A DNA stretch of 64,000 bases, taken from assembly GCA_000827495.1 (NCBI GenBank), contig KN817545.1, forward strand, positions 328,640 through 392,639. Reading direction: 5' to 3'. Below the pieces are notes generated by a model. The model searched no databases, was not told the origin of the DNA, and saw only the letters and a list, made by a program, of their open reading frames with translations. Each line of letters begins with the position of its first letter. The stretch's first letter is position 1. Positions 13,910 through 60,740 of this stretch are shown here, in pieces. Made by a program: the position numbers and the translations under genes. The DNA is from Hypholoma sublateritium FD-334 SS-4. Lineage: Eukaryota; Basidiomycota; Agaricomycetes; Agaricales; Strophariaceae.

Positions 13910-16900
13910 TCACTTCGTAAAATCCTCCTCAAATAGCAATCGTGCCTGAAGAACCTTTCCCAAGTGCGTCGACTGGAAGCTCATACCCTTCCTCCTCAAG
14001 CCGAGCAGCTTCTGAAGGACAAGCACAGGGCTCTTGTCAAATAGGCACACCACGGACATCTCCGCCGTCCTCTCCCCACTGGGGACAAATCGATCACGCT
14101 CTATAGCCTGACTACCATCCGCCGACTCACTCGACGAGATACCAAGGAGTAGGCAGGTGCGGAGGTACGCCTCGTAGTTATCAAAGTACAGTTGGCCCGC
14201 CCAGATGCTGAGTTGATAACCAGCGTCATTGAGTAAGGATCCCTGGTTCATAGGCTCGTGACCCAGTGGCGGGAGGCAATAGAATGCGAGGTCATCGAAC
14301 GACTTCATCGACTGTGAGGTGCGTGGGGCGTAGACGTGCAAGCGGACGTGGCGGCTCTTTCGAATATCTTCAAGCAAAATGTTGACTTCATATGGACTCA
14401 TCACAACCAGAGTCAAAGTCCCATCTTCACCTCTATGGGAGACAATCCAGTTGATGGGCCGGAGGTATTCGGTGAGGGTGGACCTCTCATTTTTGCTCAG
14501 CGTTGTCGTCATAAAGTCCCTAGTGCCCAAGAGTAGTTTACTCCTTGCACTCCAGCGGCCCAGATTCTGTGAGAACAACGGCGATAGCAGTGGTTGGAAG
14601 GCCGTGGAAAAGGGCGATATGGCGCCGCACTTGACAAGTCTCTGTACATCCGGATGCAGCTCTTGCACAGCAGCCGGGAGCTCGGGTGTTCGTTCCTGGT
14701 GAGGCTCCTCCTCTATCTCATGGCTCACTTCCCGTTCCTGCTCTTCTGCCATCATTGTATTGTAAAATTTCGCGACACCGAGCATCTTGAGGCGGTCAGT
14801 CACGTCTGGAAAGTTCTTGGCCGCATCCATCATGCCTGAATCCTCGGTATCGTGGCCACCGTACATGTCATCCAAGTCTTGTGCCGCGGATTCAAGCCAA
14901 GTACTGCGTAGAACCTCGATGTTTTTATCCTGGGAACTGGAGAAGGTAGAATAGGCAGCTTGTCGCTTGTGATAGTGGACTCCCTGCTGAATAAAATGAG
15001 GTATGTGGTCTTTGATGTCAGTGCACGTATTTGACATTGCCCAGATGAGGATATCGACGACTTGAACTGAGGCTGATGATTCAATCATTTCGAGCCTTCG
15101 TATGCGCCTATCGACTTCAGGAGGTGCACAAAACATAATGGACTGGCCATGCCCCAAATTTCGCATCCTCATACAGCCTATCAAGATGTATCAAATTATT
15201 AGATTACCAACTGAGACAAACTGTGTTCAACATACTTACCCTGAACAAGTTTATCCTTCGTGACCTTAGGCCCGAGCGTTACCATGGCCCGAAAATCAAG
15301 GGGAAGCTTGAGATCGGTGCCTCTGGTGTGCGCATCATCGAGATATATGATGCACTGATGTAGTCGTTGGATGAAAGGTGACAAGTGGAGAGGTTGGACT
15401 AAGCCAGAGCGTGTGAGGACGGATAAATTGTCCTCATCATCGAAGAATACCCCGGCGACAACATCATCCGCAGAAATCAGAGATAACCAGTATTCAACCA
15501 ACTGTCGGTTTGTCATCTCCAACATCTGCCATTACGACTTTCAGTTGCTGGTCGGACTGTGACAAAAAGAACTTACCTGTGCGCCGACGTCGAGCAACAC
15601 TCTGATTTCTATTGGTTCTTCAACCAGTACGTGCAAAAGCTCGAACGCAGAGCACGGCTCCCCATTTCTGCCCTGGATACACAGATACCTGTCGTTTTCA
15701 GGTTGTAGTAAGAATGCCAGAACCTGAGCATTTGTTCGAAGCTGATTAACGGGGTCACTATGTGTGATCGAAGTAGGCAGTAGGTCGGAGTTGTCGTTCG
15801 TTCCACTGAATCCAGTGGTGAAATTGAGTTTTGATTCAGCTAAGTCCCAACCAGTAGTTCGTAGTTTGAAAGGAAACTCTTTGGCCTCTTTCGGAAACAC
15901 GACGCGCGAGAGATAGAAATCGATAACACCTTTGTTGTGTTGGAAGACGGGAGCGATTTGCGTGGTGAACGTATCAATATCCATCACATTAACCCCAATG
16001 ATTTGCCGAAATGTAGGAGGAATGCTGTCCCCGCCTCTTTTGACCCAGGTTTCATACTCGAGTGATGGATTGTCGAGTTTATTAAGCAATTCAAAGCATG
16101 TATTCACTTGCTCTGATGTGAGACCTCCATAATAATATGTCAAACAAGTCAGGCAGACAATGATATCGGGGTGACCAAAATCGCTTCGTAAGCTGGGTAC
16201 ATCCTACAAGTGATGATGAGCAATGATTAAGCATAGAAATATTGTATGTACCTTAGCCCTGTATGGAACAGCAAGCAGTGAACGCTTGAGATCGAGACCA
16301 TAATCGACCCGCCAGCGCCGCGAACTTAGAGAATATTCCAGGATACCATGCGCGAGGAGTCCACGAAGTACAAGAAGGCCTTTCCAAACACCAGTCTTCT
16401 CATAGGCCTTCCTCACTGTACGAAGCGCATGGGGGTCAACATCACGCATTGTTATAAAACTGAATAGGTGCGACCGAAGCGCAACCTGGAAGCCGAGGCC
16501 AACAAAAGTGATGTTTTCAAGTCTTCCGTTCAAAGCATCCCGAGCAATCCAAGAGACGAGGGCTTTTGCAGCGGAGAGCCCTAGTAAGCGAAAATGAGGG
16601 AAATTCATGCCACCTGCCGTGCGACGGTGCCTAATCAACTCGACTTCCTCGGGATATTTCCGATGAAGCAAATCCATGTATTGGTTCACGAGATCAAAAA
16701 CCTTTTGTGTTGTAAGCCATCGATCTGGGCTACCATCAAGAGGCCTTTGCTGATCTTTGGTGTAGATGAGTTGATATCGGACGTGCAGGAGTTCATCACT
16801 CTCATCGAGGATATCGCGAGAGGCTGAATGAAGCCATGTCTGGGTCGCTTGCAAATCCTGGGCATTTTGGTCATAATCTCCTTCCAAAGTGAGTGTCCGG

Positions 16901-19900
16901 TCAATGACCATTAATCGGAATGAAAGGATATGTTCTGGTTGAGCAACCAGGATCCCTCCCACACGGGCACACTCTTCGAATAACATTCGAATTTTCTGCG
17001 TGGTTTCAGAGGATGTTTTGACATCGACATCACGCGAGAACGGGAGGTAGAAGACGCGACGATTAGGAAGACCAGAAAGACGCTCAACAAGGAGTTGGAA
17101 CATTTGCTTCGCTAATGGTTTCAAAACAACGACGCGAACGAGCCTTCGAGAATCTGCCAGAGCAGCTGCCACAAGAGGTACGATGACGTAGGACTTTCCC
17201 TCGCCCATGTTGAGCTGTAATAATGTATTCTTGTCTGAAGAGGGTGATATCATTTCGTGTGCAACTTGAGATTGAAGTGGACGCGTTATGAAATTCCCTT
17301 GTATCTGAAAATATGTTAACACTCTGGACGAGAAATTGTATTTGGTTCTTACTTGTATCAGTAACCAAATGGGGTATCTTTTTGCGTCTGACCAGTTGAA
17401 CGACGTGTTATCAAGCTCTTTGAAAAAATTGTGGACCTCTGATCGAAGGGAAAATTCGACGAGGCGTTGTGAGTGCTGATACTCAATGAATGCTTCAGCA
17501 AAATAAATTAAGATATTCGGCCAGTTTCCGGAAGAATGAAGGCACGCTGAAGAGCCCAACAATTCGAGCACCGTACGTCGCGAAATGGACGGCCAGAGCC
17601 CTGCACTCCTGAGGATATGTTCAGCGGGAGTGATTGGCATAAGAGCCTCACAGATCAACGAAAAAACGTAGGACAAGCGATCTTGTACCCTTGTGCGATA
17701 CTTCATACAAACACTAAGGGCGGGTGCGCACTCATTGGGTATGGCTAATGATCGTTGACCACGTAATTCATTTCGGCTGGTTTCGAGGCGGTCTTGATAC
17801 ATGTGATGAAGCGCAGTGGTATGGGTGCGTTCAAAACGTTTGATAAGATTTCCCAAGGCAGAGGTATCAATTGGTAATCCATGTCGGCGGGTAAGTGCAT
17901 GGTTTTCCATTTCTCCAAATTTGTGGGATGCAGGTTGGGCCGTAGGTGCATCACGACTTCGCAGAAGCATCTCGAGCGTAAGGATGGGGTCGGAAATCTG
18001 CACTGCGTCCGACTGCGGTAGAAATTGCAATTTAGGAAGGGTGTGCACGTTTATAGCAATACTAGGCGTGCAACTCCTCTGAAGAAGGACCGTAGAGACC
18101 CTATATGCAAATAACTGAAGCTCCATATTGGCAAAACAATTTGCAAAGTAATTCCTGACAGTTTTCATGATCATCTCGATCTGAAACCACTCGTTTGAAT
18201 CCGCCTCATCGAATGGTGATTGTGGATTGTTACATGGCCACTGGTTCATCAATCGAACTACAGCATCTTCGATTTTACGTTGGGACAAAGTCACATAAGT
18301 CCTGCTGATACGGTTCCTGTAACCTTGGTGGTCTTCGTATGGTAAATGGGCGAGACGTCCAGCAGGGCTGCTTTCGATGCTGAATATGTAAGAGCCGACA
18401 ATCGATGATACATTGTTTCGAAGTGGTTCATATCCGTGGCTCAGATTATAGGAGGTATACATAGGCGGAGGAGCCATCAGCAACGAACTGTGGATAGTAG
18501 CACATGCGAGCAAGACGGGTATGTGGAACGCGAGATCGGGTTCATTTCGAAAAGCCAGAGCAGCGAAAGAAAATATTAGCGTAAACTTTGACCGAGGATG
18601 GGTAGATTTACGACAGGATTCATAAATGCTGAGCCACTGCTGGGAAAGGTCGAAGGAGAGCCAGTGGTGTGAATATGTTAGCGATCTTTGTGGGTCCAGT
18701 CCATGCATTGTACCCCATTTTTCGAATATGCCGTAGAGATTGGTGAGCGAAAGAGATTTGATGGTGAGACCCACATGCGACACATACGCCAAACGCGAGG
18801 TTTTCAAGGCCTCCATTTCAGCATCCGGATTCCGTACACAATCTCTGGAGTGATATCTCCTGTCGGTATCCGATGAGCAGCCGATGTCTCTTTGATAGTA
18901 GATGGCATGTCGTCCAGCGCGCGCCGCCAATATAGGATCACTGCGGCTCTGCCACCGGGATGTGACTGCTTGACACAACTCCGGAAAGATGGACAAAGAA
19001 AGACTATGATCTATGATTTTGGAAACGGCGCTGTCGAACAATCTATGCTGGGATAACACCGGCAGACGCGAAGACCATTCGGTAATCTGCATTGCGCGAA
19101 GATGCGGGGGGTAGTAGCGCCGAATCGGACTGATTTCTGCAATGAGTCGGAGAAGCTCGATATCCGCTTTTCCCAACTCCTGAAATGAGAAACATCCAGC
19201 ACCCTGCAGCTCTTGTAGCGCGTGATCGGTGCCCGTCTGAGAGGTTAACGGGTCTGCAAGGGAGTGGCTGCACAAAGCGTGGAGGTAAATCTTGAATAGG
19301 CGGCTTGTGAGGCTGAAATTCCCAACCAAATTCCCGAGGTCGGTGTCAATGTCATACTTATACCAAGTAATTTGACGCTGAGAATTGCAATCGGTGTCGA
19401 TACTGACGGAGACATGATCCTCGTTTGGGTGGAGAGTAAATTGAACCTTGCCATGGGGTATTATCACCAGGCGCAACCGCGGAAGACTGGCGAAGTTGAC
19501 GTCCTTGTGGCGAAGAACTAATTGATTACGAAGCCCAATCATAGTCCCTGTGCACTGATTGCTGTCGACGATCATATTGTGCATATTGTTCGATTCCATT
19601 TCACTGTTTTCGTTCAAGAAAAAAGAAAGCCCGAATCGGGGCAAATCGATCAAGATGCGAATTGGTTGGCAATCCAAGTCCAAGACAGCTGTGAGATGTT
19701 CTAAATGTTCCAAAGGATAGAAACGATTAGCAATGCTATGAAAGGTCAAACTTCCGAAATCGATAAGCTTTTGTCGTCGCTTTTCTCCATGTGACATCGT
19801 AGAAGCGCCGTTCGGCCAGAAGTCGAGCCGCCAGTCCGAGGAGGTGTGCTCCCACATCCGATTAAGAGGACGGAATTCAATCACACCAGTAGCAGTATTC

Positions 19901-22900
19901 ATCCAGTGGGTATAATCCTCAGTGAAATGGCGCGGGAAATCCTTGGCCAATATAGCAGGAGGAATCAGTTCGAAGATATTTCCCGACTGATCTTGTGCAC
20001 GGATGATCAGATGTTTGACATCATGTTGCAGGACTGCAAAGAAAACCTGCCGTTTTTAACGTCAGAACATTAATTAATGATGAAAAGGGCGGGCTGGAAT
20101 AGTATACCTGAAAACCGTGGATCAGGTGTCTTGTTGCGTAATCCATGCCGTGTATATTGGCTGGAACAACATCAAGAATTTTCTGGACGGAAATTATTAG
20201 CTATGTCAAGCGGTATAAGATACATACGAACCCGACCAAAAATTCTCTGGTAAGTAGAATGTGCAAGCATCTGATTAGGAAGGCGGCCCAATGGCTTTCC
20301 GTCTATCAAGAGTCTACCAGAGAGTAGGTTGTAATGAACCTGGCGCGAACATTGATTACGCTCTGGGTTGGTGAATGACATTACCCAACGTGCATTCGGC
20401 TCGGGCAAGTGCCGCCACTGGTCACGATCGCCGGGTTGATACGTCGGCCAGACCGACGCAATAGCAGCGTCCAGGCCACTTCTATTTGTGCGGATGAGTG
20501 TTGCCAACCTCGATTCCAGGAAATGAGCTAGCCTGCAATCACGGCGAAGAAGCTTCTGAAGATTGAGCGACAAGGTGCTGGATGGCGGGGTGTAGTCATG
20601 GATCACGATGCTGCACTCGACAAGGATGGCGACGTCTGAGGAGGAAGACAACAGCGCGCTGAGATGGTTCCCTGGGTCAACGTCAAAGGTAGCTCGACAG
20701 ATGGCGGCTATCTCGCAGGCTCGTATTTGCAGTTCGCCGATAGTCTTCTCCTTATCGATGATGGTTTGCAATTTGTACAGGATCTGGCGCATCCACTCAT
20801 AGGTTATAGTCCGAGCACGCCGTAGCAGAGCATACCCGTTTTTGATCACTCGCGAATCAGTGGCGGAGACGAGCAATCGGCTCGCGAGATAAACTGCGAG
20901 AAAATTCAGGTCTATGAATGCAGTGGAAGACAAAAACCGACGTACTGAGAGTTTTGACTGTATTCCCTTCCATCCAATTACTACCGACTTGCGACAGAAG
21001 ATCGGCACTCTCTTGAATCAAAGTTAAGCCAAACCCTTCAATCTCAAGTTCCGAGTGCCAGATTCGGAGACGGCCGTCGCTCGCCAAGGGCCCGATTTGC
21101 CACGCTGCTTGCATGAGAAGGATATGCACCTCTTCGCGCGAGAATGTTAGCGTCTTGGTGCGCAGCTCGCGAACGATGTTCATCCACTGAAGTTGGGCTC
21201 CGCAGCGCAGATTGGAGAATGCAAGCTGTTCGTGGACGCTAAGGGAAGTCGGGCAGTCTCCTTGCTTCACAATTGTCGAATTGTGCGAGTGCGTCGAATG
21301 CGAGACAGCGTATTGCAGATGGCTATAATCGCTCTCCTTGTCTGGGAGAAGGAGCGTACAATACGGGTGGAGGTCAATGGCGAATGATGTATGCGCCGGT
21401 TCCATGAGAAGTTTGTCGTACAGCCTGAAGTTGAGGGCGTTGTTGACACAAACGTGCTGATCTGTGTTAGGTATCTTGGCGGCGCGGTAGTGTGATGAAA
21501 GGAACGACTTTGTTATTGAAGCAGACGTGATTCTGTCTGATGTCGTGCGTCCATTCCACGCTCGCAGTCCCGCGTAGTCCTCAAGTGCGTATACAACGGT
21601 GGTCTTCGGGCCGATGTGCGCCATGCCAATGTCGCGTAGGACCTGATATGTCATAGTTCTCCAGATTGAAAACGCGGGTGGGCAGTCGAGTTCGAAAATG
21701 GTCGCAGCGGCTTCCAATCGTCTGCTTGACAGCGGCCATTCATGCACGCCGATAGTCATGGCCTCCGCTCGCTTTTTCAGCATGCACTTTGCACAATTAT
21801 TCCGGGCGTGGGTTAGCCGGGAGTATCCATTGCGATCGATGTGGTTGTTGAAAGTGCAGTCTAGTGTAGCAATCTGGTGTAACAGCTGACCATGCTGTTC
21901 GTTTCGATCACGCAATTGCGCTAGCTTCACTCGCCGCTCTTCGGTAGCAGCGAGCTCAATGGCTGATCTGAGATCGTACATCTTCAACGACTGCTCAAAA
22001 TAGCGCACTGCGAACGACGTTTCTGTGATGTCGGTGGCGTATATAGAGGTGAATGCGCTGTTAGCATTTGCGATGGAGTGCCGTTCGCGAAGATGCCGTG
22101 CTATTGCAGCAGCACGATTAAGAGACACCGAGCTGCGAACAAGGAGCGGATCCAGAATGGTGGCCGGGATCTCAGGAGAGTACGAACGAAGAAGCGGGTA
22201 TTGAGCACACACGACAACGTCTAGAGCAACCCACAAATCAAGAATCGTCAGGATCATTCTCGATTGGTCTTCTGCGTTCGATGCATAATGTTTCTTGGTG
22301 GAAATCACGTATTGGTCGATGCAGGACTTCAAAATATGGCTGGCCAGTTCGTTTCTAGAGTTAGCTTGAGCCCAGGCACTCGACTGGGCCTCAACGATAG
22401 CCTCGAAATCGGCTAAGGCAATATAAGGATCGGCTTTAACGGCGTGGATGAGGACATCGGGATAGATGGCGGAAATGGAGAAGTCCCGCAGGCGAGGCGG
22501 CTCGTTCAGTGTAAAGGATTTCAGGGTGCCACGGGTAGAATCTCTACGCAAGACAGCAGTGAGATATGTGCGAGAATTAACAAGAGAAAGTACAGTGTCC
22601 CTTTCTATAGCCAAAGGGTCTACCGCAAAGGGAAGAGAAAAGGCCTGGATACGCTGTTCATGAACCCATCTTTCTTGAAGTCGAAGCTCGACTGCTTCGT
22701 TAACGTCCTTCACCGTCTGCAAGAGGAGCGGAGACGCTGGGTGTCTGAGTTTATAAGCGCGGCGGCTCGTCTTGACCCTGGCGGTTTGTAAAATATCGCT
22801 GGAGAAATTGTTGTCGAGAAATTGTTGCAGAAGACGAGCATGCAGGAAGAGCATCCACTGTTTATAAACGTCGGTAGATCCAGACATCCTTTGCGCAGCT

Positions 22901-23705
22901 ACGCGAAGCACCAACCAGAGTGGTGACCTTCGCCAGGGGTTCAGGGCGTTTTTCCAGCAAACTTCATCGGCAATACGCTTGGTGATGCGTTGCACGTTGG
23001 CCTCCCGACCCATGCCATGAAGAATTGCGATAAGAAGTTGAGTGATGTATTTTGGATCGTTTGTCCCTCGCGTTTCTTGCACCGTAGAACCGGCCTTAGT
23101 TGTTGTCTGTGCCGAATCCAGTTGATCGACGTCCATGTTGCCTATGAATGAAACAAGCTCCTCCACGAACAAGGGGTCTTGAGAAGTGACGAGGGGAACC
23201 TCAATTGCAGGGCCAGGATACGAGCAAAGCAATTTTCCTGCTTCGCTCATGACGTGCTCGGGAGGGGGTGACACCTCGAAGGCTTCAAAAACAATGTATT
23301 CTGAGTTCTTGCGCAGTAAAAGACCAGCATTCTGGGCGCGAATGTTAAAAGCCAAAGCATCTATACATATCAATTTGGTGAGCCACTGACATAATCTTGC
23401 CTTGAGAAAAACCAACCTCCAACGCGCATGTTTAGGATCTTATCAATCTGGTCCTGCTTTTCGAAGACTCTTGTAGTATCCAGCAGGTGTCCGAGCATCT
23501 TGATCACGACAGCCCATTGCAATTGGTACTGTTCGGAGAGGTACTGTGGGAATAGAACGGCGGCGTCATACGCTAGCTCACACAGGGTGATGGCACCCAG
23601 GTCGGCCCCAGGGCCGGTGTCATGCTCTTGGGGTAGCTTTGGGGGCAAAAAGACATGATTCAGCACGTAGTCGAGCTCTTTGGTAGACGTCTTCTTGATG
23701 TCCAT
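13910..23705 (-). CDS. Giant DUF6606/DUF3638/DUF3645 SecA-like ATPase, copy 1 (intact)
   Basis: Nine exons on the minus strand: 23417-23705, 20946-23360, 20232-20893, 20108-20182, 17353-20046, 16252-17304, 15577-16203, 15240-15525, 13910-15177. They give 3,122 aa with no stop. The start is set by a 5' context shared with the paralogue at 50946. The N-terminus (NHVFLPPKLPQ) is DUF6606-like. Near residues 597-622 lies a conserved C-x15-H-x4-C-x2-C cluster. The C-terminal third carries motor motifs: GEGKS (2079-2083), VAQPEHILSF, DESDE (2212-2216), GFSGT (about 2530), TRGTD (about 2672-2676) and QGCMRMRNLG (about 2700). This order resembles superfamily 2, especially SecA. VPYRAKDVPS followed by TYYYGGL fits DUF3645. 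From memory, databases often label such proteins ubiquitinyl hydrolase, but I see no clear protease triad. The biological role is unknown. Nearest neighbour is the divergently transcribed GT32 gene. Confidence 0.9.
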
Positions 23706-24730: not shown

Positions 24731-26086
24731 ATGTCAAGAGCAGGGGACTATGAGCGCCTACCAATGTACGCCGCTTCTGCATCCTCGCAACGGCGGCGTT
24801 CATCATCATCCTCACCGACCCTCCCGCCAGACTCTCCGCGTTCCAATAGGCAGCACGGAAACCCCAATTCTAAAAGCAGCAACCGCTTTCTACTTAGACC
24901 ACGGCACATCTATGCCTTCATCAAGGTTGCTCTGCCCGTCATGTTCTTCCTCCTTCTCTTGGGATTTTACTTCTACGAACCACACGTCGAATTCGCGTTC
25001 TATGACCGGAACTGGGTCTCGAAACATATCGACCCCGTTGAACCGTTGGCAGGGTGCTTCGACGCCACGAGCGTCAGCGCAAGCTACAACGTATCGGAAT
25101 ATGTATATGGGCCGAAGTTGACAGAGGTGCAGGCAGGCATGCCGATGCGCATGGGCATGGACTGCTACAACTTTGCGGGGACGATCAAGGCCGCGCCTCA
25201 GCTCAGTGGACAGTCGCTGGCCCCAGCAGTGCGCACACAGTACCATACATACTGGCGAAACGATCTAGCGCCGTTTGGCCCACGACAGGAATGGATGCTC
25301 AAATCCTTTTTCGCGACGCAGGACACGGCAACGTCACGGTTGACGTTGTGGTCGAATGGTGACCTGGGAATGAACAACGAGATCCTGCAGACGTACCTGA
25401 AGCGGTTCCCAGATGCATTCGCGATCGACATCGTCGACATTCCCGCGCTGGCAAAGGGCACCGAACTCGAGGGCAGTAATCTACTGCAAAGCAAGGACGC
25501 GAAGGCGTGGGTCGACGGCGACCTCATCCGGCTGCTTCTTCTGTGGAACTTTGGCGGTGTATGGGTGGACATGGACTCGCTCCTCACGCGCGACCTTGCA
25601 CCACTCTTTGAGCACGAGTTCGTCACGCAGTGGGACTGCTACGACAAGCTCTATGTACCCCTCAACGGCGCGCTGATGCGCTTCCGGCAACACTCACCAT
25701 ACCTCTGTGAAGCATTCCACGTCATCGCGACCGCGCCGCCGCCGCGCGCGGGCTCGACCGATTGGGGCGCGACGCTCTACCTCAAGCTCTGGCGCCGCCT
25801 GATCGCCGCAGGTGTCCCGCCATTTAAGGTCCTCCCATTCTGCTTCAGCGACGCGCGCTCGTGCCGCCTCGATAACCGCCTCCCGGACCCGTTTGTGCCC
25901 GATAACGCCAAGGGCCTGTGGACCGGCGGGCTCGGTCTGGAAGCGGGTGGTGGGCTGGACAAGGTCTTGAGCCAGATCTTCGGCGTGCATCTGCATAACC
26001 AATGGGAAAAACCGTACCCCGCCGGCGGCTGGGTAGAGAGGTTGCTGCTGACACGGTACGATGCAAAATTAGGAGGTGGGGCGTAG
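24731..26086 (+). CDS. GT32-family glycosyltransferase, type II membrane protein
   Basis: Single-exon gene of 451 aa. The N-terminus is cytosolic, Ser-rich and basic. A membrane anchor follows at about residues 62-82, giving a type II Golgi/ER topology. The catalytic domain contains the DXD-type motif in VWVDMDSLLTRD (D280/D282), preceded by the run WVDGDLIRLLLLWNFGG, which is typical of the DXD sugar-binding region (PF04488, GT32). Family members bind Mn and a nucleotide sugar and act in protein O/N-mannosylation or glycolipid synthesis; the donor and acceptor here cannot be told from sequence. The C-terminal FGVHLHNQWEKPYP segment is the conserved His/Asn/W region seen at the end of such domains. 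The gene is GC-rich compared with its flanks and intron-free, unlike most neighbours. Confidence 0.85.
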   Translation: MSRAGDYERLPMYAASASSQRRRSSSSSPTLPPDSPRSNRQHGNPNSKSSNRFLLRPRHIYAFIKVALPVMFFLLLLGFYFYEPHVEFAFYDRNWVSKHIDPVEPLAGCFDATSVSASYNVSEYVYGPKLTEVQAGMPMRMGMDCYNFAGTIKAAPQLSGQSLAPAVRTQYHTYWRNDLAPFGPRQEWMLKSFFATQDTATSRLTLWSNGDLGMNNEILQTYLKRFPDAFAIDIVDIPALAKGTELEGSNLLQSKDAKAWVDGDLIRLLLLWNFGGVWVDMDSLLTRDLAPLFEHEFVTQWDCYDKLYVPLNGALMRFRQHSPYLCEAFHVIATAPPPRAGSTDWGATLYLKLWRRLIAAGVPPFKVLPFCFSDARSCRLDNRLPDPFVPDNAKGLWTGGLGLEAGGGLDKVLSQIFGVHLHNQWEKPYPAGGWVERLLLTRYDAKLGGGA

Positions 26087-29469: not shown

Positions 29470-30746
29470 ACAAATATCTGCAATGTGATACATGGAGACT
29501 TTACTCCACCGGACATTCTTTATTACTATAGCATTCCGCTTTACACTGCCAAGTTGGAGGGCGGTGGAAGGTTGTGACATTTTCTATATTTAGTCAATAT
29601 TTAGTGCTTAATCAAATTGGATTAGGCGCACAAACTTTGGCCTGCTCGCGAGCCGAAAGTTCCTGTTCGAATGATTTGTGTCATACAAGGGCACGCTAGA
29701 GCAGACATGTACCGTGTCAATTCTGGCCAAGCATTCTCCTTTTTGATTCTCTTGAAATCCGCACATCGGCTACATTAAATCTGTACTCCAAATTATGCCC
29801 TAAGTATATGAAAATGTGTAAGAAGAATTTACGAGTACAGGGAACAGAATATGACGCGACCGTGCTTATTGAGTCAAGATTGAGTACTATTTATGAAGGT
29901 ACTACTCAGTGACATTGCGCGCGAAGCTGCGCGAAGACTTAGATAGGCGATGGCTTCATTTAATTTACACCGACGTGCCGCGGCATCTAAATATGCCGTT
30001 TTTTGCCGCGGCTGCGAACATAAGGTAGAGTCGATCACAGGTTGCTTACTACTTTCTCCAACTTTCCCCCAGTTTTCAAGTTCCCTGTACCTGTCCCTTG
30101 AACGACGCTAACAGCGATGGTAATGTCTTGCAGCCATGTAGCGGGTCGAGCATGGCTGACTGCGCACATAATCATACTCTAGATAATTTGTCCCAGGTTT
30201 GCGGAGGTTCGCGGCGCGCGCTGTCAATCTCAAACAGCCATTCATGTCGAACTGTGCCATGTGGACCTTGGGGAGTCGTGATTAGCAACCCTCAGTAGCA
30301 GCTGGTAAAGGCTGCGCGTGTCCAGCGTCGATGCTTCAGATTCAGCAAATATAGCGTTTTCACAGCGGCGGAGGACGGTAGCCACCGGCGCGTTCGCCTC
30401 GGTGCGTCACTGCAATATTCATCGTGCTGCGCCTGTCTGGAGCTGACGTCTGTATTCTAAGTTTTGCTGCGTGTTCTATAGGTTTAAATCAGTGAAAACC
30501 TTTTATCCATCCAATGAGCGGGGCCTTATGCGCGCCCGCTGCGCAGATCAGGGAAAGGACAGACACCGCCTCGCGCTAGACTTGCGTATTTGGCGTAGGC
30601 TGCCTCGTACAGCTCCCAGAAACGAAGCGGAAATTTAAGACTCGGATGAATATCAGACTACACACTGCTCAGCAGACGCCTATAAAGGCACCCGCTCCTT
30701 TAGCAAAAAATCTGTGTCTAAACAACGAGAAAGACAAATTCCTGCA
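29470..30746. promoter_or_regulatory. Spacer and promoter between tandem sedolisin-like genes
   Basis: It holds the 3' flank of gene A and the promoter of gene B. From about 30350 onward the sequence resembles the promoter of gene A. TATAAAG lies at 30681-30687. No other coding region is supported. Confidence 0.5.
30681..30687 (+). promoter_or_regulatory. TATA box of sedolisin-like gene B
   Basis: TATAAAG lies 60 bp before the start at 30747, the same spacing and context (followed by GGC-GCCC or GGC-ACCC) as in gene A. Confidence 0.6.
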
Positions 30747-35564: not shown

Positions 35565-37212
35565 TCATCGGTATACAGGTGCGCGGTACTGCGCGGCAGG
35601 TGCACCGTTCTGATACTGAGGTAGCTGCTGCTGCTGCTGTTGCTGAGGCACCTGTTGCTGATGACCATTCCTATGTGATGACGCGCCCTGGGCCTGCTGC
35701 CTCTGCTGTGGTGCCGGCTGGGGATGAGGCTGCTGCTGGAGCTGCTGCTGCTGTGGTGCCCTTTGCACTTGGCTCTCCTCGCCCCCGCTCGGCGCAACGT
35801 ACAAACCGCGATCGATGCTCTGCGGGATCGGCTGGATCTCCGTACCGAGCTCCTGTTCGATCTTGTAGAGGTTGAACCGGTCCTCGTAAGTGACGAGGTT
35901 GATCGCGAGCCCCAAGTGTCCAAAGCGACCCGAGCGACCGATACGGTGCAGGTACGTCTCGCTGTTCTTGGGGAAGTCAAAGTTGATGACTACGTTGACG
36001 GCCTGGATGTCGATACCGCGAGTGAGCAGGTCCGAGCAGACGAGGTTGCGACAAACACCGTTGCGGAAGTCGTGGAATACGCGGTTGCGGTGCGACTGCA
36101 GCATTTTCGCATGCGAGTAGAAACATGAGTAACCGAGCTCGGTCACTTTTTTGGCGAGGAGCTCGACACGGTTTGTGGAATTGCAAAAAATGATGGATTG
36201 GTTTATTTGCAGCTTCAAAACGAGTCAATTTGGTTCATGAGAATGTTAGAGTTGGGATGCACCTTTGAAAACAGGGTATTTAGGCAGTGCACTTTCTGTC
36301 GTTCTTCTACGTATGCGTAGTATTGAGTAACACCACGGAGAGTTAGCTCGTCCATGAGATTAATCTCGTATGGCGATTTCATGTGTTTCTCCTAAAAAAG
36401 AACATGAGTAAACGCAGGGTCAAAGCGATACATCACACACCTTAAAGTCCTTGACAATCATCGGGAAGGTAGCACTAAAAAGCATGACTTGACGGTCATC
36501 GGGGAGGAAAGAGAGTAACTGCTCCATAACGGGGGCAAACTCTGGGGACAGAAGCTTGTCTGCCTCGTCCATGACGAAAACAGGGCATTCACTGAGATCT
36601 GCAACTCCCTTGCCGGCTAAATCAAGGATACGGCCGGGAGTGCCGACAAGTACGTGGACAGTCTCGGACAGACGCAAAATGTCGTCTTTTAGGGTGGTTC
36701 CGCCGGTGGTCACCATGACCTGGAGTCCCATGTGTTTGCCGAGAATTTTGCAAACTTGGGAGGTCTGCAACGCGAGCTCACGGGTGGGCACCAGCAGAAG
36801 TGCCTGGATCTTGTTTTTGCTGAGGTCGACTTGCTGAAGAGAGGGAATGACGAAGGCGGCTGTCTTTCCGGTACCATTCTTTGCGCGCGCGAGGATATCG
36901 CGCTTAGCGAGGGCGACGGGGATGGCTTCCTCCTGAATGGGGGATGGTTTTTCGAACCCGGCTTCGAAGATGCCCATGAGCAGCTCGCGCTTGAGGGACA
37001 TGTCCTCGAATTCGGTGCCTTTTGTCGCTGTTACATCTTCCGTTTGTGGGCGATTATCTTTTTTGGGCCGTTGCAGACCTGCTTTCCATGAATCGTTGGT
37101 TAATGCCGGTCTGTTTATGGAACCCCCCGTTTTTAGCATTCGTGGCCCAATATATGAAGTCCAAGCTGAACACGATTACGCACGTAGACGACGAGGATGT
37201 TGCTTGAGACAT
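35565..37212 (-). CDS. DHH1: DEAD-box RNA helicase Dhh1 (DDX6/Rck family)
   Basis: Four exons: 37184-37212, 36441-37110, 36263-36391, 35565-36212; 491 aa. Dhh1 acts in cytoplasmic mRNA decapping and translational repression in P-bodies. All helicase motifs are visible: Q motif (GFEKPSPIQ, 61-69), motif I AKNGTGKT (86-93), Ia [18 protein letters not shown] (191-194), SAT (222-224), TRGID and HRIGRSGR (365-372). The N-terminal peptide [10 protein letters not shown] and the [12 protein letters not shown] run are typical of Dhh1. I chose a 29-nt first exon (ATGTCTCAAG...) because it restores a normal N-terminus; a start at 37139 without that intron would give an odd Gly-rich one. The C-terminal 75 residues are rich in Gln from CAG-type repeats. 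Introns are 73, 49 and 50 nt. Confidence 0.95.
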
Positions 37213-50945: not shown

Positions 50946-53900
50946 ATGGACGAACTTCAATATGCCATGAACCATGTGTTCTTACCCCCGAAGCTTCCCC
51001 AAGAACATGATCCAGGCCCCCAGGCCAGCCTCGGCGACATCGCACTGTGCCGATTTGCATACGAAGCTGCACTCCAATTTCCGCAGTACCTTGCTCCGTG
51101 CCACCAAACACAGTGGAATGTGGTCACCAAGATGCTCAAAAATTTACTCGACACCACGAAATTTTCTACGAGGGATGATCGTGTTTCTAGAATTGTGAAG
51201 TTGCGGGTCGGAGGTCGGTTTTTCCAAGCTCGGAAAATGTCAAGTTTAACCAATCCATGTTATACAGAGGCACTTGCTTTTCATATTCGAGCACAGAACG
51301 CTGGCCTTTTACTCCGCAAGAATTCAGGGTCCATAATTTTTGAAGCTTTCGAGGTATCGCCGCCTCCTAAGGACGTGATGAGCGAGGAGGGGAAGTTGCT
51401 CTGCTCTTATCCCGGTCCTGCCATTGAAGTTCCCCTCGGCACCTCTCAAAATCTCTCTTTTGTGGAGCAGTTTGTTTCCTTTATCAGCAACATGGACATT
51501 GACCAGTTAGATACCGCTCAGACAACAACCAAAGCGGGATCTACAGTCCAAGAAACACGAGGGACAAACGATCCGAAGTACATCACTCAGCTCCTCATGG
51601 CTATCCTCCACGGAATGGGTCGAGAGGCTAGCGTGGAGCGCTTTACAAAGCGTATTGCCGATGAAGTCTGCTGGAAGAGTGCTCTGAACCCTTGGCGGAG
51701 GTCTCCGCGCTGGCTGGTGCTCCGTGTAGCCGCACAAAGGATGTCTGAATCGCGCGGCATCTATAAGCAATGGATGCTCTTCTTTCATGCTCGTCTTTTG
51801 CAACTGTTTCTTGACAACAACTTTTCAAGTGATCTTTTGCACGTGGCTCGGGTCAAGACAGGTCGTCGTGCTCACAAACTCGGAGATACCGCGCCTCCAC
51901 TGCTTTTGAAAATGGTGAAAGATGTTGTCCAAGCAGTCCAACTTCAGCTTCAGGAGCGGTGGTCTGAAGAGCAGCAGGATCAGGCTCTTTCACCTGCATT
52001 CGTTTCAAACGCTTTGGCCACCGAAAGGGACACCAAGATGTCGCTTGACAATTCTCGTGCATATCTCTCCGAAGTCTTACTCCCAGAACGATCCAATGGA
52101 CTGCCGAGCCCATTTGAACCGACCGAAAAGCCTCGTCTGCGGAGTCTCACCATTGACACTATCTTCCCTGACGCCTTCACCAGAGCCGCTCAAGCTGATC
52201 CATATGTCGCCCTCGCCGACTTCGAAGATCTTGTTCAGGATCACCTAGACTCCTGGACTCAACAAAATCTTCGGGAAGAATCGGCAAGCATAACATTGAA
52301 GACATGTCTCGAGCAATACATGTCCGCCGCAAAGCACCATTATGGATCGAATGCAGAGGACAAATCTCGGATGCTCTTAGTAATAATGGATCTCTGGGTC
52401 GCTCTTGACGTTGTTGTGTGCTTCCAACACCCCCTTCTTCTGTCTTACTCTCCGGAGATCCCAGCCTCGATTTTGGAACCACTGCTTGTCCGCACTTCCA
52501 TTTCCTTTGATCGCGCTGCTAAAATAGAAAGATACCTCCTTGCCCGACACGCAGATGTCGACAGGACATCGACCTCCATATACGCCTCCGAGATTACCTC
52601 GACCACATTCTCTGTGCGCTATTTTGACCGCACGCAATCAATGCAGGCCCTCAAATCCTCGATCGAAAGTACTGCTACTGCGCAGCGTGCCAGCAAGCGT
52701 GCAGAACTGGGTGATCTCAATGCCGAGCACACCAAACTGATGCGGCAGATTGCCTCAATAGATTGTACGTACTACACCACCACTGATCGGTATGGGTTCT
52801 CCCATGAGAGGCATGACAATCGCTGGTGCCAGAAGTGCAAACTTGAGAGGCAGGCGAATTCTATGCACATTGATGTTCATGAATGGCCTCTGTCGGACAA
52901 ACCTCTTGAGGCCAAAGCAACCGTTTTCAAACTTGACTGCCCATCGGCGTTCTCGATCTGGAGGACGCTGACGTACCAGATCCTGCGCGACATCGGTATG
53001 AGGCATGTCAACGTTGAAGGTACTGCAATGTACCCTCTCGGCGACTACGCTGGACTGCAGTCATGGGCGCGAGGGAAAACTTCAGCTAGAATCACGTTTG
53101 CATCCACAACGAAGTCATTCCTCGTATCGCACTACCGCAAGACCAGCATACCCGCCACAGAAAAAGATGTATGCGTCAATAATGGCCTCAACTACAGACT
53201 GTGCGACAATGTGAACCAGGAGGTGACACGCATGCCATTTGTCATCGATCTCTACCCATACTGCACCCTTCAACTTCCCGAAAGAAATAGTGCATACTCC
53301 CTCCTGCAGTACGCCGTTACGCACACGACACACTCACACAACTCCACGATTGTAAAACAAGGAAACTGTCCGGTTGATCTTAGCATTCATGAGCAGCTGG
53401 CCTTCACCAACCTCCGCTGCGGAGCCAATCTGCAGTGGATGAACATTGTGCGCGAGTTGCGTACCAGGACGCTGACATTCTCGCGCGAGGAGGTGCATAC
53501 TCTTCTCATGCAAGCCGCGTGGCAGATGGGACCTTTGGGCGGCGATGTAAACCTCAGAGGTTGGCATACAGAACTTGGTGTCGCGGAATTTGGTTCTGTC
53601 TTGATCCAGGAAGCAACAGATCTTTTATTGCATGTTGAAAGTAACTGGATGGAGGGAAACACAGTAAAAACCATCAGTATGTTTATTTCTATTGTCTCGG
53701 TTCATGGATCATGTGTAATTGAATTGCATAATCTCTCAGTTTACCTCACAAGTCGACTGTTGGCTTCCGCCGCTGATGCAGAAGTGATCTTGCATTGCTA
53801 TGCACTTCTGCGGCGCGCTCGCAAGACAACACACGAATGGATGCGCCAGATTGTGTGCAAGCTGCAAACTGTTACTGACAGCGAAGCTACTATCGGCGAA

Positions 53901-56900
53901 ATGCAAAGACGGGCCTGCGAGATGGCCGCTATTTGCAGAGCCAGCTTTGACGTCGGCGCCCGGGATCATCTCGATGCTCTGCTGTCTTCTGCCGCTGATG
54001 CTGCTATTCTCATCGAATGCAGCATTGTGATCCATGATAACACCCCACACACCACCTCAGACTCGCCCCTCGGTTTTCAGAAACTCCTTCATCGTGATCG
54101 GCGACTGGCCCATTTCCTGGAATTGAAGCTTGCGAGACAAATTCATACCAACGCCCGTGGATTGGACGATGCTGTTGCGTCCGTTTGGCCCTCGTATCGG
54201 CCGGGAACAGGAGGCTGGCAAAACCTGCCCGGGCCAAATGCACGCTGGACGACTTCATTCACTGACCCCAGGCCTAATCAGCGTTCCCAGCAGGTCCACT
54301 ATAACCTGCTGACCGGAAAACTCCTGATAGATGGGAAACCATTAGGGCGCCTTCCACATGAGATACTCGGACATTCAACTTACCAGCGAATTTTTGGCCA
54401 GGTTTGCAAACATTTCATATCGTCTTGCATACTCCCAGGCTGATTCCTTTACTCCCAGAAAATGTTTGGCGTCATCCCCGCTAGTATGTATGGAATGGAT
54501 TATGCAACAAGACACATGATCCATGGCTCCCAGGTAGAGTTTTGAGCATACCTCTATTGTCTACTTTTTTTTAACCTCAAAAACAACAGATTTTCTTCGC
54601 GTTTCAGAAACGTGACTCGGACGTCAAACATTTAATCATCCGTGCGCAAGATCAGATGGGCAGGACATTGGAGTTGATCCCCCCCGACATCCTTGCCAAT
54701 GATTTTCCCCATTTTCTTACTGAGGATTATGCTCATTGGATGGACACTGCTACTGGAGTAGTCGAATTCCGGCCCCTCAAGCAACTATGGGAATGTACCT
54801 CCCTTGATTGGCAACTTGACTTCTCACAGGATGCCCCATCTATGATGTTCCACGGAGAAAAGAGGTTACAAAGGCTTATTGACATCAGAAGCCAGACATT
54901 TCAAGGCATCGCTAATCGTCTCCATTCTTTAGAGCATGCTACACACCTTACAATCACGCTTGACATGGATTGCCAGCCAGCCCGCATTTCAATCGATCTG
55001 CCCCGATTCCGCCTCTCATTCTTCTTGAACGACAACGGCGAGCTCGAGTCATGCAACATGCGCAATATGGTTATCGATGGCAACCAATGTACGGGGACCA
55101 TGATCGGACTGGAGAACCAGTTAGTTCTTCGTCACAAGGACTCAGACTTTGCGAGGCTTCCGCGGTCGCGCCTGGTAATCATCCCTCATGGCACGGTCCA
55201 ATTCTTACTGAACAGAAACCATGTTTCCGTCACCATCGACACCAATTGCCAGTCTCAACATCAGGTTGTCTGGCACAAGTATGACATTGATACCGATCTT
55301 GGGTTACTGGTTGGCGGTGTCAACCTCACAAGCCGCCTCTTCAAGATATACCTCCATGCTCTGTGTAGCCACTCGCTCCCGGACCCCCTGACAAGTCAGA
55401 CAGGCACCGACCACGCGTTGCAAGAGCTGCGGGGTGCCGGATGTTTCTCGTTCCAACAATTGGAAAAGATTGACATCGATCTGCTCCGACTCATTGGAGA
55501 AATAAGTCCAACGCGATGCTACTACCCGAAGCATCTTCGCGTAATGCAGACTACAGAATGGTCTTCGCAGCTGCCAGTACTTTCCCAACACAGATCATTC
55601 GACAACGCAGCCTCCAGAATTTTGGATTATGCCCAATCATTGGCTATATTCCCCGAACTGTGTCAAGAGGTCAGCTTGCAATGGCGGGTCCGTAGCGATC
55701 CTGTCTTGATGGCGCGTGCAGAACGACATGCCATATACTATCAAGGAGACATTGGGTCTTCATCTGATTCTGACAGGAGATACACCTCTAAAGATTGCAT
55801 ACACAACACAGATGCTGAAATGGAGGCTCTGAAAATCTCACATCTGGTGTATACTTGGCCTGTGGGACTCACTGTTGAGCCCTCTTCGTACCCTAACCTC
55901 CAGGGTATTTTTGAAACATGGAACATAATGCAGGGACTCGATCCAGAGAGATCACTTACGTATTCTTGAAATTGGTTGTCTTTCAATCTTTCCCAGCAGT
56001 GGCTCAGCATATATGAATCCTGTCGCGAAGTAATGCACGTGGGGTCAAAGTATGCCTTGATTTTCTCATTTTCCGCATTGGCCTATCGAAATAAACCCAG
56101 TCTTGCATTCCACATACCCATCTTGCTAGCATGTGCCACCATTCCGAGCTCGCTTTTGGATTCACCTCCGCAGCACGTCTCTTATTCACTGGATCAGGGA
56201 TACGAACCTCTTCGAAACAAAGTACTGTCGATTGTCAGCTCCAACATCTATGACGTTGATGATAGCCCTGCGGGGTGCCTCAGCCGTTCACCAAACGAAG
56301 AATACTATAATTTCAAAGCACGTCTTCAAAGACATTATCAGGATCTGTCTGGCCCCAGGATCAACGATGCTGTAGACCGTTTGATGGCCCAGTGGCCCTG
56401 TTATGATCCTCAAACACCGTTTCACAGCGAAGATGCCAGTCAGTGGTTCCGAACCGAAGCCGTTATTTCTGCTGCTAAGAAGTACTTTGCCGATTGCTTT
56501 GCTAATCGTGAACTCAAAGCATTTGTCTCAAGGCTTTCAAGGGTTCTTCAGCAACATTGCATCCCATCCCCTCTAAATATCCACAACCTTTCTAGTTTGC
56601 AATTCTTACCACACTTTAACCCCGCCCACATCTCTGACTCGTCACAGCTTACTCTGGAATTGGTCTTGTCCAGTCGTGATGCGCCGTTGCCGTATCGGAT
56701 TCGGGCTTCCCACAAATTCGGCGAGATTGGAGCACAGTCACTCCCTAGAGGCCTTGGACAGCCTGTGGATACTACGGCTTTGGGCAGTCTTATTGAACAA
56801 TTTGAGTCCAACCATACCACCGTGCTTCATCAGGTATACCGAGACCGTCTCACAGCAAGTCGACATGAATTACATGGCCGGCGGAAATCATCTATACCTA

Positions 56901-59900
56901 ATGAATGTACACCCTCGATCGGTGTCTGCATTGAATATCGCACAAGGTCTCAAATGCGCATGGCTAGCATCTTCTCTTCATTATGCGACACATTGTCACC
57001 TATCACTCATGCAGAAGAAATCCTCAAGGACGCAGGGCTCTGGCCACCCATTTCGCTGCGTACAGTGCTCGAGCTTCTGGGATCTGCAACATGTCTACAG
57101 TGTTCTACGGAATGGACTGAAATCTTGATTGGCTTTGCTGAAGCAATCATCGAGTACCAGCATGCGCAACACCTAGTCGGATTTGCGCTTCGTTCAGAAG
57201 TTCATAATTTCTTCAAAGAACTCGATAATGCCGCATTCAACTGGTCGGATGCACGCGAATATCCCATCTGGCTACTGATACAGGTAAGTTTACATGTGAA
57301 TATTTTTGCTAGAAGATCTAACCCTGTTTTAAGATACAGGGCAACTTTATAACACGTCCTCTTCAGTCTCAGGTGGCAAGGGAAATGATATCACCATCAT
57401 TGAATAAGAATACAGTTCTGCAGCTGAACATGGGCGAAGGAAAGTCTCATGTTATTGTACCTCTCGTGTCAGCTGCTCTGGCAGATTCTCAAAAACTCGT
57501 GCGAGTCGTCGTTCTGAAGCCCTTGGCCAAGCAAATGTTCCAACTTCTCGTCGAGCGCCTATCAGGTCTTCCCAATCGCCGTGTCTTCTACCTTCCATTT
57601 TCTCGTGATGTCAAAGCGACCTCCCAGACAACGCAAAAGATTCGAGGGTTGTTTGAAGAGTGCGCTCGGGTAGGAGGAATATTGGTAGCACAGCCTGAAC
57701 ACATCCTCTCATTCCGCCTCATGGTTGTTGACCGAACACTTTCGTCTGAAGGATCTCTCAACCAAATTGCTCGTGAATTGCATGCGACCCAAGGTTGGCT
57801 TCATTCTGCTTCTCGAGACATTCTTGACGAGAGCGATGAACTCCTCCATGTCCGATATCAACTTATCTACACGATGGATCAGCAACAGCCCCTTGATGGT
57901 AGTCCTGACCGCTGGACCATTGTAGAGAAAATATTCGACCTTGTACAGCAACATATGGATATCCTGTGTGCTGAATTTCCCGAGGAGGTTGAACTAGTGA
58001 ACCACCGAAGTACAATAGACAAAGCAAATTTCCCGCATTTTCGTCTACTAGGCGCCTCCGCTGCAAAAGCACTTGTCTCACGTGTTGCCAACGATGTGAT
58101 GAACGGAAGAGTTGAAAATGTGACTTTTGTCGGCCTTGGCTTCCAGGCTTCCCTTCGTTCTCGTGTGCTTTCTTTCATGACAATCCGTGACCTTGACCCT
58201 CCTACCCTTCGTACGGTGAGGGACACCTATGAAACGACTGGCCTTTGGAAAGGCCTTCTTCTGCTTCGTGGGCTCCTTGCACATGGAATCTTGACATATT
58301 GTCTGAACTCACGGCGCTGGCGGGTTGATTATGGCCTTGACCCCAAACGTTCCATGCTTGCCGTCCCTTACAGAGCCAAGGTACTATCTTCTTTCTTTGT
58401 TGTCCAATGTCTTTTCATTAATTATATATGTTTTATACAGGACGTTCCAAGCATGCGGAGTGAATTTGGTCACCCGGACATCGTTCTCTGTTTGACTTGT
58501 CTGACCTATTACTATGGGGGTCTGACTTCTGATCAAGTCACGGAATGCTTTGAACTGGTCAACAAGCTTGATAATCCATCGCTTGAATATGAAAGCTGGG
58601 TTGAACGAGGCAGAGAAGGTATTCCTCCTGCAATCCGACAGATTATAGGGGTGAATATGAAGGATGTGGACACATTCAATACAAAGATTATTCCTGTCTT
58701 TCAGCACAACAAAGGCACAATTGATTTCTACCTTTCGCAAGTCGTCTTCCCGAGAGAGGCCAAGGAATTCCCGCACAAACTAGGAACTTCCGGCTGGGAT
58801 CTGGCGGAAACAAAGGTCAATTTCACCACTGGCTTCAGTGGAACCAACGACAACTCCGATTTGCTACCTACCACAATCTCTCAGAGTGACCCAGTCAATC
58901 AACTTCGCACAAATGCACAAGTTTTGGAGTTCATACTTCGGCCAGAGAACAATAGGTATTTGTGTATGCAGGACGGAAGCGGGCAGCCATGCTCCGCGGC
59001 TGATCTTTTGCATAAATTGGTGGATGAACCAAAGGAAATCAGAGTTCTGCTTGATGTTGGTGCCCAGGTAAGCACTTTTTTTTTGTAAATGCGACCAGTC
59101 CCTCAAAATTGTCATGTTAGATGTTAGAAATGACGAATCAACAATTAGTCGAACATTGGCTATCGTTGACCTCTGTCGATGTTGCCGCTGGGGTATTCTT
59201 TGATGATTCGGACAGTTTAACCGTCCTCACCCACACGGGATTAGTGGAACCCCTTCATTCATCAACCTTCATCCAACGACTCCATCAGTGTATTGTATAT
59301 CTTGACGACGCGCACACCAGAGGCACAGACCTCAAGCTTCCTCCTGATTTCCGGGCCATGGTAACGCTCGGGCCCAAGGTCACCAAGGATAAGCTCGTTC
59401 AGGGTATGTTGAATTGATTCTGTCTCAGTTGTAGTATAATGATTTGATCCATTTTCTTTCTAGGCTGCATGAGGATGCGAAATCTGGGATACGGCCAGTC
59501 TGTCGTATTTTGTGCACCTCCTGAAGTTGATAGGTATATACGAAAGCTCGAGAAAGTTGAAGCATCAGCCCCGGTTCAAGTAGTCGATGTTCTCACCTGG
59601 GCAATGTCGAATACGTGCGCCGATATCGAAAACCATGTACCCCATTTTGTCCAACAGGGAGTCTACTATAACAAGCGACAAGGCGCATACTCTGCATTTT
59701 CCACTTCACAGGTTGAAAATATTGAGGCTCTCCGTAACTCTTGGCTTGAACCCGCGGCACGAGAGCTGGACGACATGTACGGCGGACATAACACCGAGGA
59801 TGGGAACATTATGGACCTGGTCAAATCCTTCCCGGCAATGCATGACCGCCTCAAGATGCTCGGAATCACTGAGGTTCGCGACAGATCGATGGCCGAAGAG

Positions 59901-60740
59901 CAGGAACGAGAAGTGAGCCACGAAATGGAGGAGGAGGCTCAGCTGGAACGACCGCCCGAAATCCCTGCGGCGGTTCACGAGCTGCATACCGATGTACAGA
60001 CTTTTGTCCGACGTGCCACCATATCCCCCACTTCCAAAGCCTTCTTACCTCTTTTGTCTCCCCTGTTTTCAGCGAATCCCGCACTGGGCTTGCAGAACCG
60101 TGTGCGAGCAAAACATCTCCTGGGCACCAGGGACTTCATGACAACAACGCTAGCCAAAAACGAACAGTCTGGCCTCACCGATTACCTTCGACCAATCAAC
60201 TGGATTGTATCTCACGTCAGTGAAAACGGGACCTTGACTCTGGTGGTGATGAGCCCACATGAAGTCAACCTCCTGCTTGACGATATCCGAAAGAGACGGC
60301 GTGTCCGCTTGCACGTCTATGCACCGCGCACCTCACAATCGATGAAGTCTTTCGACGACCTCGCGTTCTATTGCATTCCGCCACTTGAACACCCACCGGC
60401 GGGCGGCGCGTCTTTGCTCAACAATATTGGGTACCAACTCAACATCTGGGCGGGCCAGTTATATTTTGACAGCTACGAGGCATACCTGCGCACCTGCCTA
60501 CTCCTCGGTATCTCCTCCAGTGATTTGGCGGATGACGGCGAGGCTGTGGGACGTGATCGATTCGTCTCTTTCGATGGGAGGACGTTAGAGATGGCAGCGG
60601 TATGCCTGTTTGACAAGAGCCCTGTGATTGCCCTCCAGAAACTGTTTGGCCTGAGGAGGAAAGGCATGAGTTTCCAGTCGACGCACATGGGGAAGGTTTT
60701 GCAAGCGCGCCTGCTTTTCCCGGACGAATTTGCAACGTGA
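50946..60740 (+). CDS. Giant DUF6606/DUF3638/DUF3645 SecA-like ATPase, copy 2, interrupted by one TGA
   Basis: Nine exons: 50946-51213, 51268-53676, 53740-54401, 54459-54533, 54590-57283, 57334-58380, 58441-59067, 59121-59403, 59464-60740. They give 3,113 codons before the stop, with every intron position and phase as in copy 1; exons 3, 4, 5 and 7 have identical lengths. All motor motifs are kept: GEGKS, AQPEHILSF, DESDE, GFSGT, TRGTD, QGCMRMRNLG; so is the C-x15-H-x4-C-x2-C cluster near residues 588-613. Codon 1598 (55967-55969) is TGA where copy 1 has His (TYS-stop-NWLS versus TYSHHWLS). Either the gene is a young pseudogene, or the base is a sequencing error, or an unusual 48-nt intron (55960-56007, GTATTC...CTCAG) removes the stop in frame. 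Introns 1, 2 and 6 (54, 63, 60 nt) are stop-free multiples of three. Confidence 0.85.
55967..55969 (+). other. In-frame TGA inside giant ATPase copy 2
   Basis: The TGA follows TAT TCT in the frame that is open on both sides for hundreds of codons. It is the only disruption in the 9.3-kb CDS. It separates a 1,597-residue N-terminal part (DUF6606 and Cys/His cluster) from the C-terminal part with the ATPase motor. Confidence 0.85.

Follow-up and report, generated by a model that had tools for sequence, protein, structure and literature searches.

Giant DUF3638/DUF3645 proteins of Hypholoma sublateritium with a predicted SecA-like superfamily 2 motor core

The window analysed here, a stretch of 64,000 nucleotides of contig KN817545.1 of Hypholoma sublateritium FD-334 SS-4 (assembly GCA_000827495.1, positions 328,640 to 392,639 of the forward strand), contains two paralogous genes, A and B, for giant proteins with DUF6606, DUF3638 and DUF3645 domains. 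The C-terminal third of these proteins is proposed to form a tandem-RecA superfamily 2 (SF2) ATPase core with a SecA-like architecture, an overall explanation to which we give a probability of about 0.5. The core is best labelled as an SF2 motor of SecA-like type rather than as SecA itself.

Motif series and conservation

Six motifs, in the same order in both paralogues, had been reported from the letters of the DNA (hereafter the sequence-only reading). All six were observed in that order in the spliced translations of A and B, as GEGKS, VAQPEHILSF, DESDE, GFSGT, DDAHTRGTDLKLP and QGCMRMRNLG (Table 1). In both genes, Pfam placed DUF6606 in the N-terminal part, DUF3638 (PF12340; 273.9 bits in A and 285.9 bits in B, both above the cut-off of 31) across motifs I to II, and DUF3645 in the insertion that follows, with a weak match to DEAD (PF00270) that fell below the cut-off of 26 (23.2 bits, E 6.5e-5, and 22.0 bits, E 1.5e-4, in A and B, respectively). 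The motor had been assigned to a DUF3638/DUF3645 protein, and motifs I to II do lie within DUF3638; motifs III to VI, however, belong to neither domain, because DUF3645 is a stretch of 33 residues within the II-III insertion.

Conservation was described on 101 of the 230 retrieved proteins, with a length of 2,900-3,250 residues; these full-length relatives were drawn from the best-120 lists of two database searches, so the counts apply to fungi and not to the family at large. Motif I was GEGKS in 97 of the 101 relatives, GEGKT in three and GEGKL in one. The Ib-type motif (residue 2135 of the relative P0147) was QPEH in 59, QPDH in 23, LPEH in 18 and QPGH in one, and motif II was DESDE in 100 and DECDE in one. 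Motif III was GFSGT throughout (101/101), motif V was HTRGTD in 94, HTRGVD in four and RTRGTD in three, and motif VI was QGCMRMR in 88, QACMRMR in seven, QGCMRLR in four and otherwise in two. Near-invariant as it is in these relatives, the series is not a chance occurrence.

The mean frequency of the commonest residue was 0.62-0.71 in the four motif-bearing blocks of 100 residues and 0.69 in the DUF3645 block, and ranged from 0.31 to 0.59 in the N-terminal 2,000 residues. Columns conserved at 95% or more numbered 22-34 per 100 in blocks 2001-2200 and 2301-2700 (P0147 numbering), 4 in the insertion block 2201-2300, and 0-16 per block in the N-terminal 2,000 residues. The motor of gene A was 53-54% identical to seven top-scoring relatives from Ceratobasidium, Rhizoctonia and Lactarius, and at most 59% identical to shorter metagenome fragments, within the best-120 list. 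Outside the motor, a CxxC in the N-terminal part (P0147 residues 614 and 617) and an acidic EEQERE stretch after the motor (approximately residues 2812-2817) were also conserved.

Predicted fold

The AlphaFold2 model of a relative, P0003 (mean predicted local distance difference test score of 84.3, predicted template modelling score of 0.79), exhibited two RecA-like domains in tandem. The six motifs, which had been equated with SF2 motifs I, Ib, II, III, V and VI, were found at the expected strand ends. Neither of the refuting outcomes named in the sequence-only reading, a model lacking tandem RecA-like folds or motifs at unrelated positions, was therefore observed. In the first RecA domain, strand 79-82 was followed by GEGKS (residues 86-90) and strand 168-171 by QPEH (172-175); strand 211-215 led into DESDE (216-220), and strand 523-526 lay on GFSGT (524-528). 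Strand 658-662 stood ahead of HTRGTD (666-671), helix 690-697 contained Q695, strand 707-713 came next, and a helix of 42 residues (735-776) was observed after the second RecA domain.

The first Foldseek match of this model was SecA (6itc, E 4.5e-7). In the VIA structural ranking, ranks 1-19 were all SecA, which accounted for 25 of the 50 rows listed; the best rows comprised SecA, DEAD-box, RIG-I-like, DinG and SNF2 proteins, all of which we take to be SF2 proteins. The first 19 SecA rows aligned over 403-531 residues, versus at most 361 for DEAD-box proteins among the rows listed, and two truncated SecA entries aligned over 341 and 349 residues. With regard to the helical scaffold and two-helix finger of SecA, the ranking was read for the extent of its alignments, which ended at model residue 812-820 in 18 of the 25 SecA rows. 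As far as prediction goes, the SecA-like motor of the sequence-only reading was upheld by the two RecA-like domains and by these ranks, with a modest lead over other SF2 proteins. Judging from this model, SecA is probably the closest characterised fold.

A long insertion between motifs II and III had also been predicted; it was present, between the same two motifs as the insertion of SecA. The spacing was 281-337 residues (median of 304) in all 101 full-length relatives, compared with 176 in SecA and 26 in RhlE. The insertion of gene B, modelled alone and with 20 residues translated from an inferred intron, was helical and appears to be the family's own. The DUF3645 stretch, among the most conserved parts of the protein, was yet among the least certain of both models and, in the insertion model, partly corresponds to the intron read-through.

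Sequence comparison with SecA

The likeness of GEGKS and RGTD to SecA, noted earlier, could be traced to GEGK[ST] and RGTD signatures common to both. When the core profile of the 101 relatives was compared by hhalign with nine SecA or SecA-like sequences, the score was 28.5 (P 0.011), versus a mean of 17.2 and a highest score of 26.4 among 60 column shuffles, a soft control in which any SF2 likeness is removed too. Single sequences in the core comparison scored 22.4 (RhlE), 19.3 (UvrB) and 15.7 (DinG). The default core alignment covered motifs I to II; under very permissive settings it was colinear, with GEGKS paired to GEGKT, DESDEILH to DEVDSILI, GFSGT to GMTGT and RGTDLKL to RGTDI.L, and with motif VI unpaired.

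Several results weigh against a specific relationship to SecA. The lead of SecA over DEAD-box proteins in the structural ranking was small, and the insertion model matched no known fold among the rows listed, where the preprotein cross-linking domain of SecA was absent, although this does not prove a new fold. Single E. coli SecA, with P of 0.13 and 0.096 in two hhalign comparisons, performed worse than the single controls RhlE (0.063), UvrB (0.062) and DinG (0.022), and in the full comparison DinG (0.022) was nearly level with SecA (0.015-0.018). No SecA Pfam model matched any of 44 relatives at E <= 10, in a scan whose HMMER filters drop most matches above approximately 0.1, or any of 10 window pieces at E <= 1. 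Sequence kinship with SecA is weak, and the profiles are too weak to decide. Since none of the 44 relatives matched the SecA family, and with this weak profile support, we rejected filing the proteins as SecA proper. PF00270 was matched in 34 of the same 44 relatives at E <= 10 (best E of 2.3e-5).

Other searches yielded candidates that were discarded. Among solved structures, a sequence search with a window exon gave three matches, the best being a MIC60-MIC19 fusion (E 0.015), and a profile search gave only a designed protein (E 3.2). NCBIfam returned a single match that looks like chance (E 0.049; 12.3 bits versus a cut-off of 625), and a PADLOC scan returned no match.

Gene structure and the paralogous pair

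Exon limits were set from GT-AG junctions and from the agreement between A and B (Table 1). The span given for the motif series in the sequence-only reading, 13910..17304, runs from the stop of gene A to a position that proved to be an exon start, with the gene extending well beyond it. Near the N-terminus of gene A, at 23380-23440, we observed a frame change with no recognisable intron, the homologous stretch of gene B being open.

Table 1. Coordinates of genes A and B and of their motor features in the window
Feature	Position	Strand	Remark
Gene A, giant DUF6606-DUF3638-DUF3645 protein	13910..23705	-	Stop at 13910; ATG at 23705 inferred by likeness to gene B
Gene A, C-terminal exons	20055-17353, 17304-16252, 16203-15577, 15525-15240, 15177-13910	-	
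Gene A, motif I, GEGKS	17205-17191	-	Spliced translation
Gene A, motif Ib-type segment, VAQPEHILSF	16947-16918	-	Counterpart is a strand then a helix in the P0003 model
Gene A, motif II, DESDE	16806-16792	-	Spliced translation
Gene A, II-III insertion	15814..16791	-	310 residues after splicing
Gene A, DUF3645	16147..16293	-	Interrupted by intron 16251-16204; residues 1255-1268 of one exon and 1-19 of the next
Gene A, motif III, GFSGT	15813-15799	-	Spliced translation
Gene A, motif V, DDAHTRGTDLKLP	15339-15301	-	Spliced translation
Gene A, motif VI, QGCMRMRNLG	15243-15152	-	Interrupted by intron 15239-15178
Gene B, inverted paralogue	50946..60740	+	Motor exons 57334-58380, 58441-59067, 59121-59403, 59464-60740
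Gene B, motor motifs	57433..59489	+	GEGKS 57433, VAQPEHILSF 57685, DESDE 57826, GFSGT 58831, DDAHTRGTDLKLP 59304, QGCMRMRNLG 59400-59489
Gene B, II-III insertion	57841..58830	+	Contains inferred in-frame 60-base intron 58381-58440

A search for DUF3638 in the 46 Mb genome reported only two matches, a count to be taken as a lower bound; both are in the window, inverted and approximately 27 kb apart. In the C-terminal half, 71% of 1,520 aligned positions were identical between A and B. Nonsynonymous (dN) and synonymous (dS) divergence were 0.183 and 1.38 over 1,509 codons, and 0.124 and 1.45 over the 703 codons of the motor; dS is near saturation, so the dN/dS ratio is rough. From these sequences, the motor has clearly been retained under purifying selection between A and B. 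Gene B carries an in-frame TGA (55967-55969) upstream of the motor, in a stretch that is otherwise colinear with gene A; it may reflect either recent inactivation or an error in the assembly.

Elsewhere in the window, a typical DEAD-box helicase N-terminal domain was found between the paralogues (36420-37139; PF00270, E 7.5e-45), as well as a Pro-kumamolisin activation domain (30714-31604; E 1.8e-32), two adjoining open reading frames matching successive parts of DUF7729 (42618-43907), and a glycosyltransferase sugar-binding region with a DXD motif (24731-26086; E 2.1e-5).

Distribution and published mentions

Of the 3,059 matches of a database search, the best 120 were fungal wherever an organism was named. 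In BFVD, we found nine giant-virus proteins (E 7.1e-28 to 2.7e-14); seven carry a DUF3638 or ubiquitinyl hydrolase 1 label, and four of these are in Hokovirus. Because no viral DNA locus was confirmed, these homologues are recognised by fold and database labels alone. A DNA pattern search for related loci gave 2 and 18 matches in viral contigs and 12 in genome contigs, none of which was confirmed by tblastn. The pattern KDxP...FGHPD was absent from the viral contigs and gave four unconvincing matches in genome contigs (by profile, one stretch of 15 residues, E 0.0051), and none of the 15 viral loci with the LNMGEGK pattern had a profile match. PF12340 was matched in none of 4, none of 398 and none of 288 prokaryote genomes, the latter two sets coming from two phyla; with no positive control, this is not proof of absence. 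A tblastn search with P0003 gave no match at E <= 0.01 in plasmids and phages.

In published work, DUF3638 is mentioned for a gene listed among the lineage-specific genes of A. oryzae (PMC6237848), as a letter code in the legend of a microsporidian gene-family figure (PMC5423893), for two new genes of the ciliate Tetrahymena with mechanisms called undefined (PMC12615304), and for nine expanded genes in Hypomyces perniciosus (PMC6627653). For Amoebophilus, a symbiont of amoebae, "SecA-like helicase-related domains" are named as effector domains, with no tie to DUF3638 stated (PMC3482391), and SecA-like ATPase domains are described in actinobacterial secreted proteins (PMC8195603). The literature searched, which lacks most subscription journals, contained no published link between DUF3638 and SecA, mentioned DUF3645 in one paper, and did not mention PF12340 or DUF6606.

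Proposed mechanism and alternatives

In the mechanism that we propose, the span of approximately residues 2000-2720 of the 3,087 residues of P0147 would be the tandem-RecA SF2 core. The first RecA domain would carry motifs I, Ia, Ib and II, then be interrupted by a helical domain of approximately 300 residues, DUF3645 included, and be completed by motif III; the second RecA domain would supply motifs V and VI and lead into the long helix. Binding of ATP between the two RecA domains would make the cleft close, and its hydrolysis would shift both the inserted domain and the long helix, so that the substrate is pulled. This substrate may be a polypeptide, which would be pulled, unfolded or remodelled, while the N-terminal 2,000 residues may serve as a scaffold. 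From its sequence and model, the core is very probably an active SF2 motor. In SecA, the place between motifs II and III is taken by the preprotein clamp. By analogy, a polypeptide substrate is slightly favoured here, given that SecA is the best solved match and that the giant proteins carry their insertion between the same motifs as this clamp. It is more doubtful, although conceivable, that these are cytosolic protein translocases or unfoldases of approximately 3,100 residues, with a SecA-type motor outside the Sec pathway and a clamp domain of their own, distributed in eukaryotes and giant viruses. A role in biological conflict would fit the expansion in some fungi described in one paper, and the four entries in one giant virus.

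The same core could instead belong to a nucleic-acid SF2 enzyme, that is, an RNA or DNA helicase or translocase of the RIG-I- or DEAD-like type, in which the insertion would be unrelated and the likeness to SecA would reflect no more than shared SF2 ancestry. We regard this as a serious, if tentative, alternative; against it, the first 19 SecA rows align over greater lengths than the DEAD-box rows listed, the long insertion is found in SecA but absent in RhlE, and no nucleic-acid-binding Pfam domain was matched in three full-length relatives at E <= 1.

The UniRef name "ubiquitinyl hydrolase 1", carried by many of the listed relatives and by two giant-virus homologues, would make the protein a deubiquitinase with a merely regulatory ATPase core, and conserved Cys and His residues outside the motor (e.g., C614, C617, H715, H781 and C793 in P0147 numbering) are compatible with it; yet no such Pfam domain was matched in the same three relatives at E <= 1 and the N-terminal part is much less conserved than the motor. 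We regard this function as improbable, although the N-terminal 2,000 residues could hold a cryptic protease. Also improbable is a core that is catalytically dead and serves as a scaffold, its motif-like sequence being kept for folding alone: a motif VI that deviates from the usual pattern and the in-frame stop of gene B would agree with it, but all 101 full-length relatives have the motif I Lys (GEGK) and the leading DE of motif II, and purifying selection is seen in the motor when A and B are compared.

If the SecA-like motor is real, a SecA-type protein motor may be at work in the eukaryotic cytosol. A family known by DUF names, as "hypothetical protein" or by an unsupported "ubiquitinyl hydrolase" label would then become a testable ATPase family, in which the most conserved part, an SF2 motor most like SecA, indicates the residues to mutate.

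Comparison with known systems

Genes A and B encode members of the DUF3638 (PF12340), DUF3645 (PF12359) and DUF6606 (PF20255) families, with no distinguishing feature found. With the DEAD-box and RIG-I-like SF2 helicases, they share two RecA domains, the motif series, weak PF00270 matches and structural scores near those of SecA; they differ from them in a longer spacing, RhlE having 26 residues from DEAD to FSAT, and overlap with them in structure over a shorter length than with SecA. Compared with SecA, the giant proteins are eukaryotic, carry an N-terminal part of 2,000 residues and a further C-terminal part, and have a different motif VI and a longer, helical insertion without a fold match. 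SecA has a long helix after its second RecA domain, and the P0003 model exhibits a helix at the same place. SecA also shares with these proteins the tandem RecA core, the order of the motifs, the long insertion between motifs II and III, and the GEGK[ST], DExD, GxxGT and RGTD signatures, and it is their best structural match.

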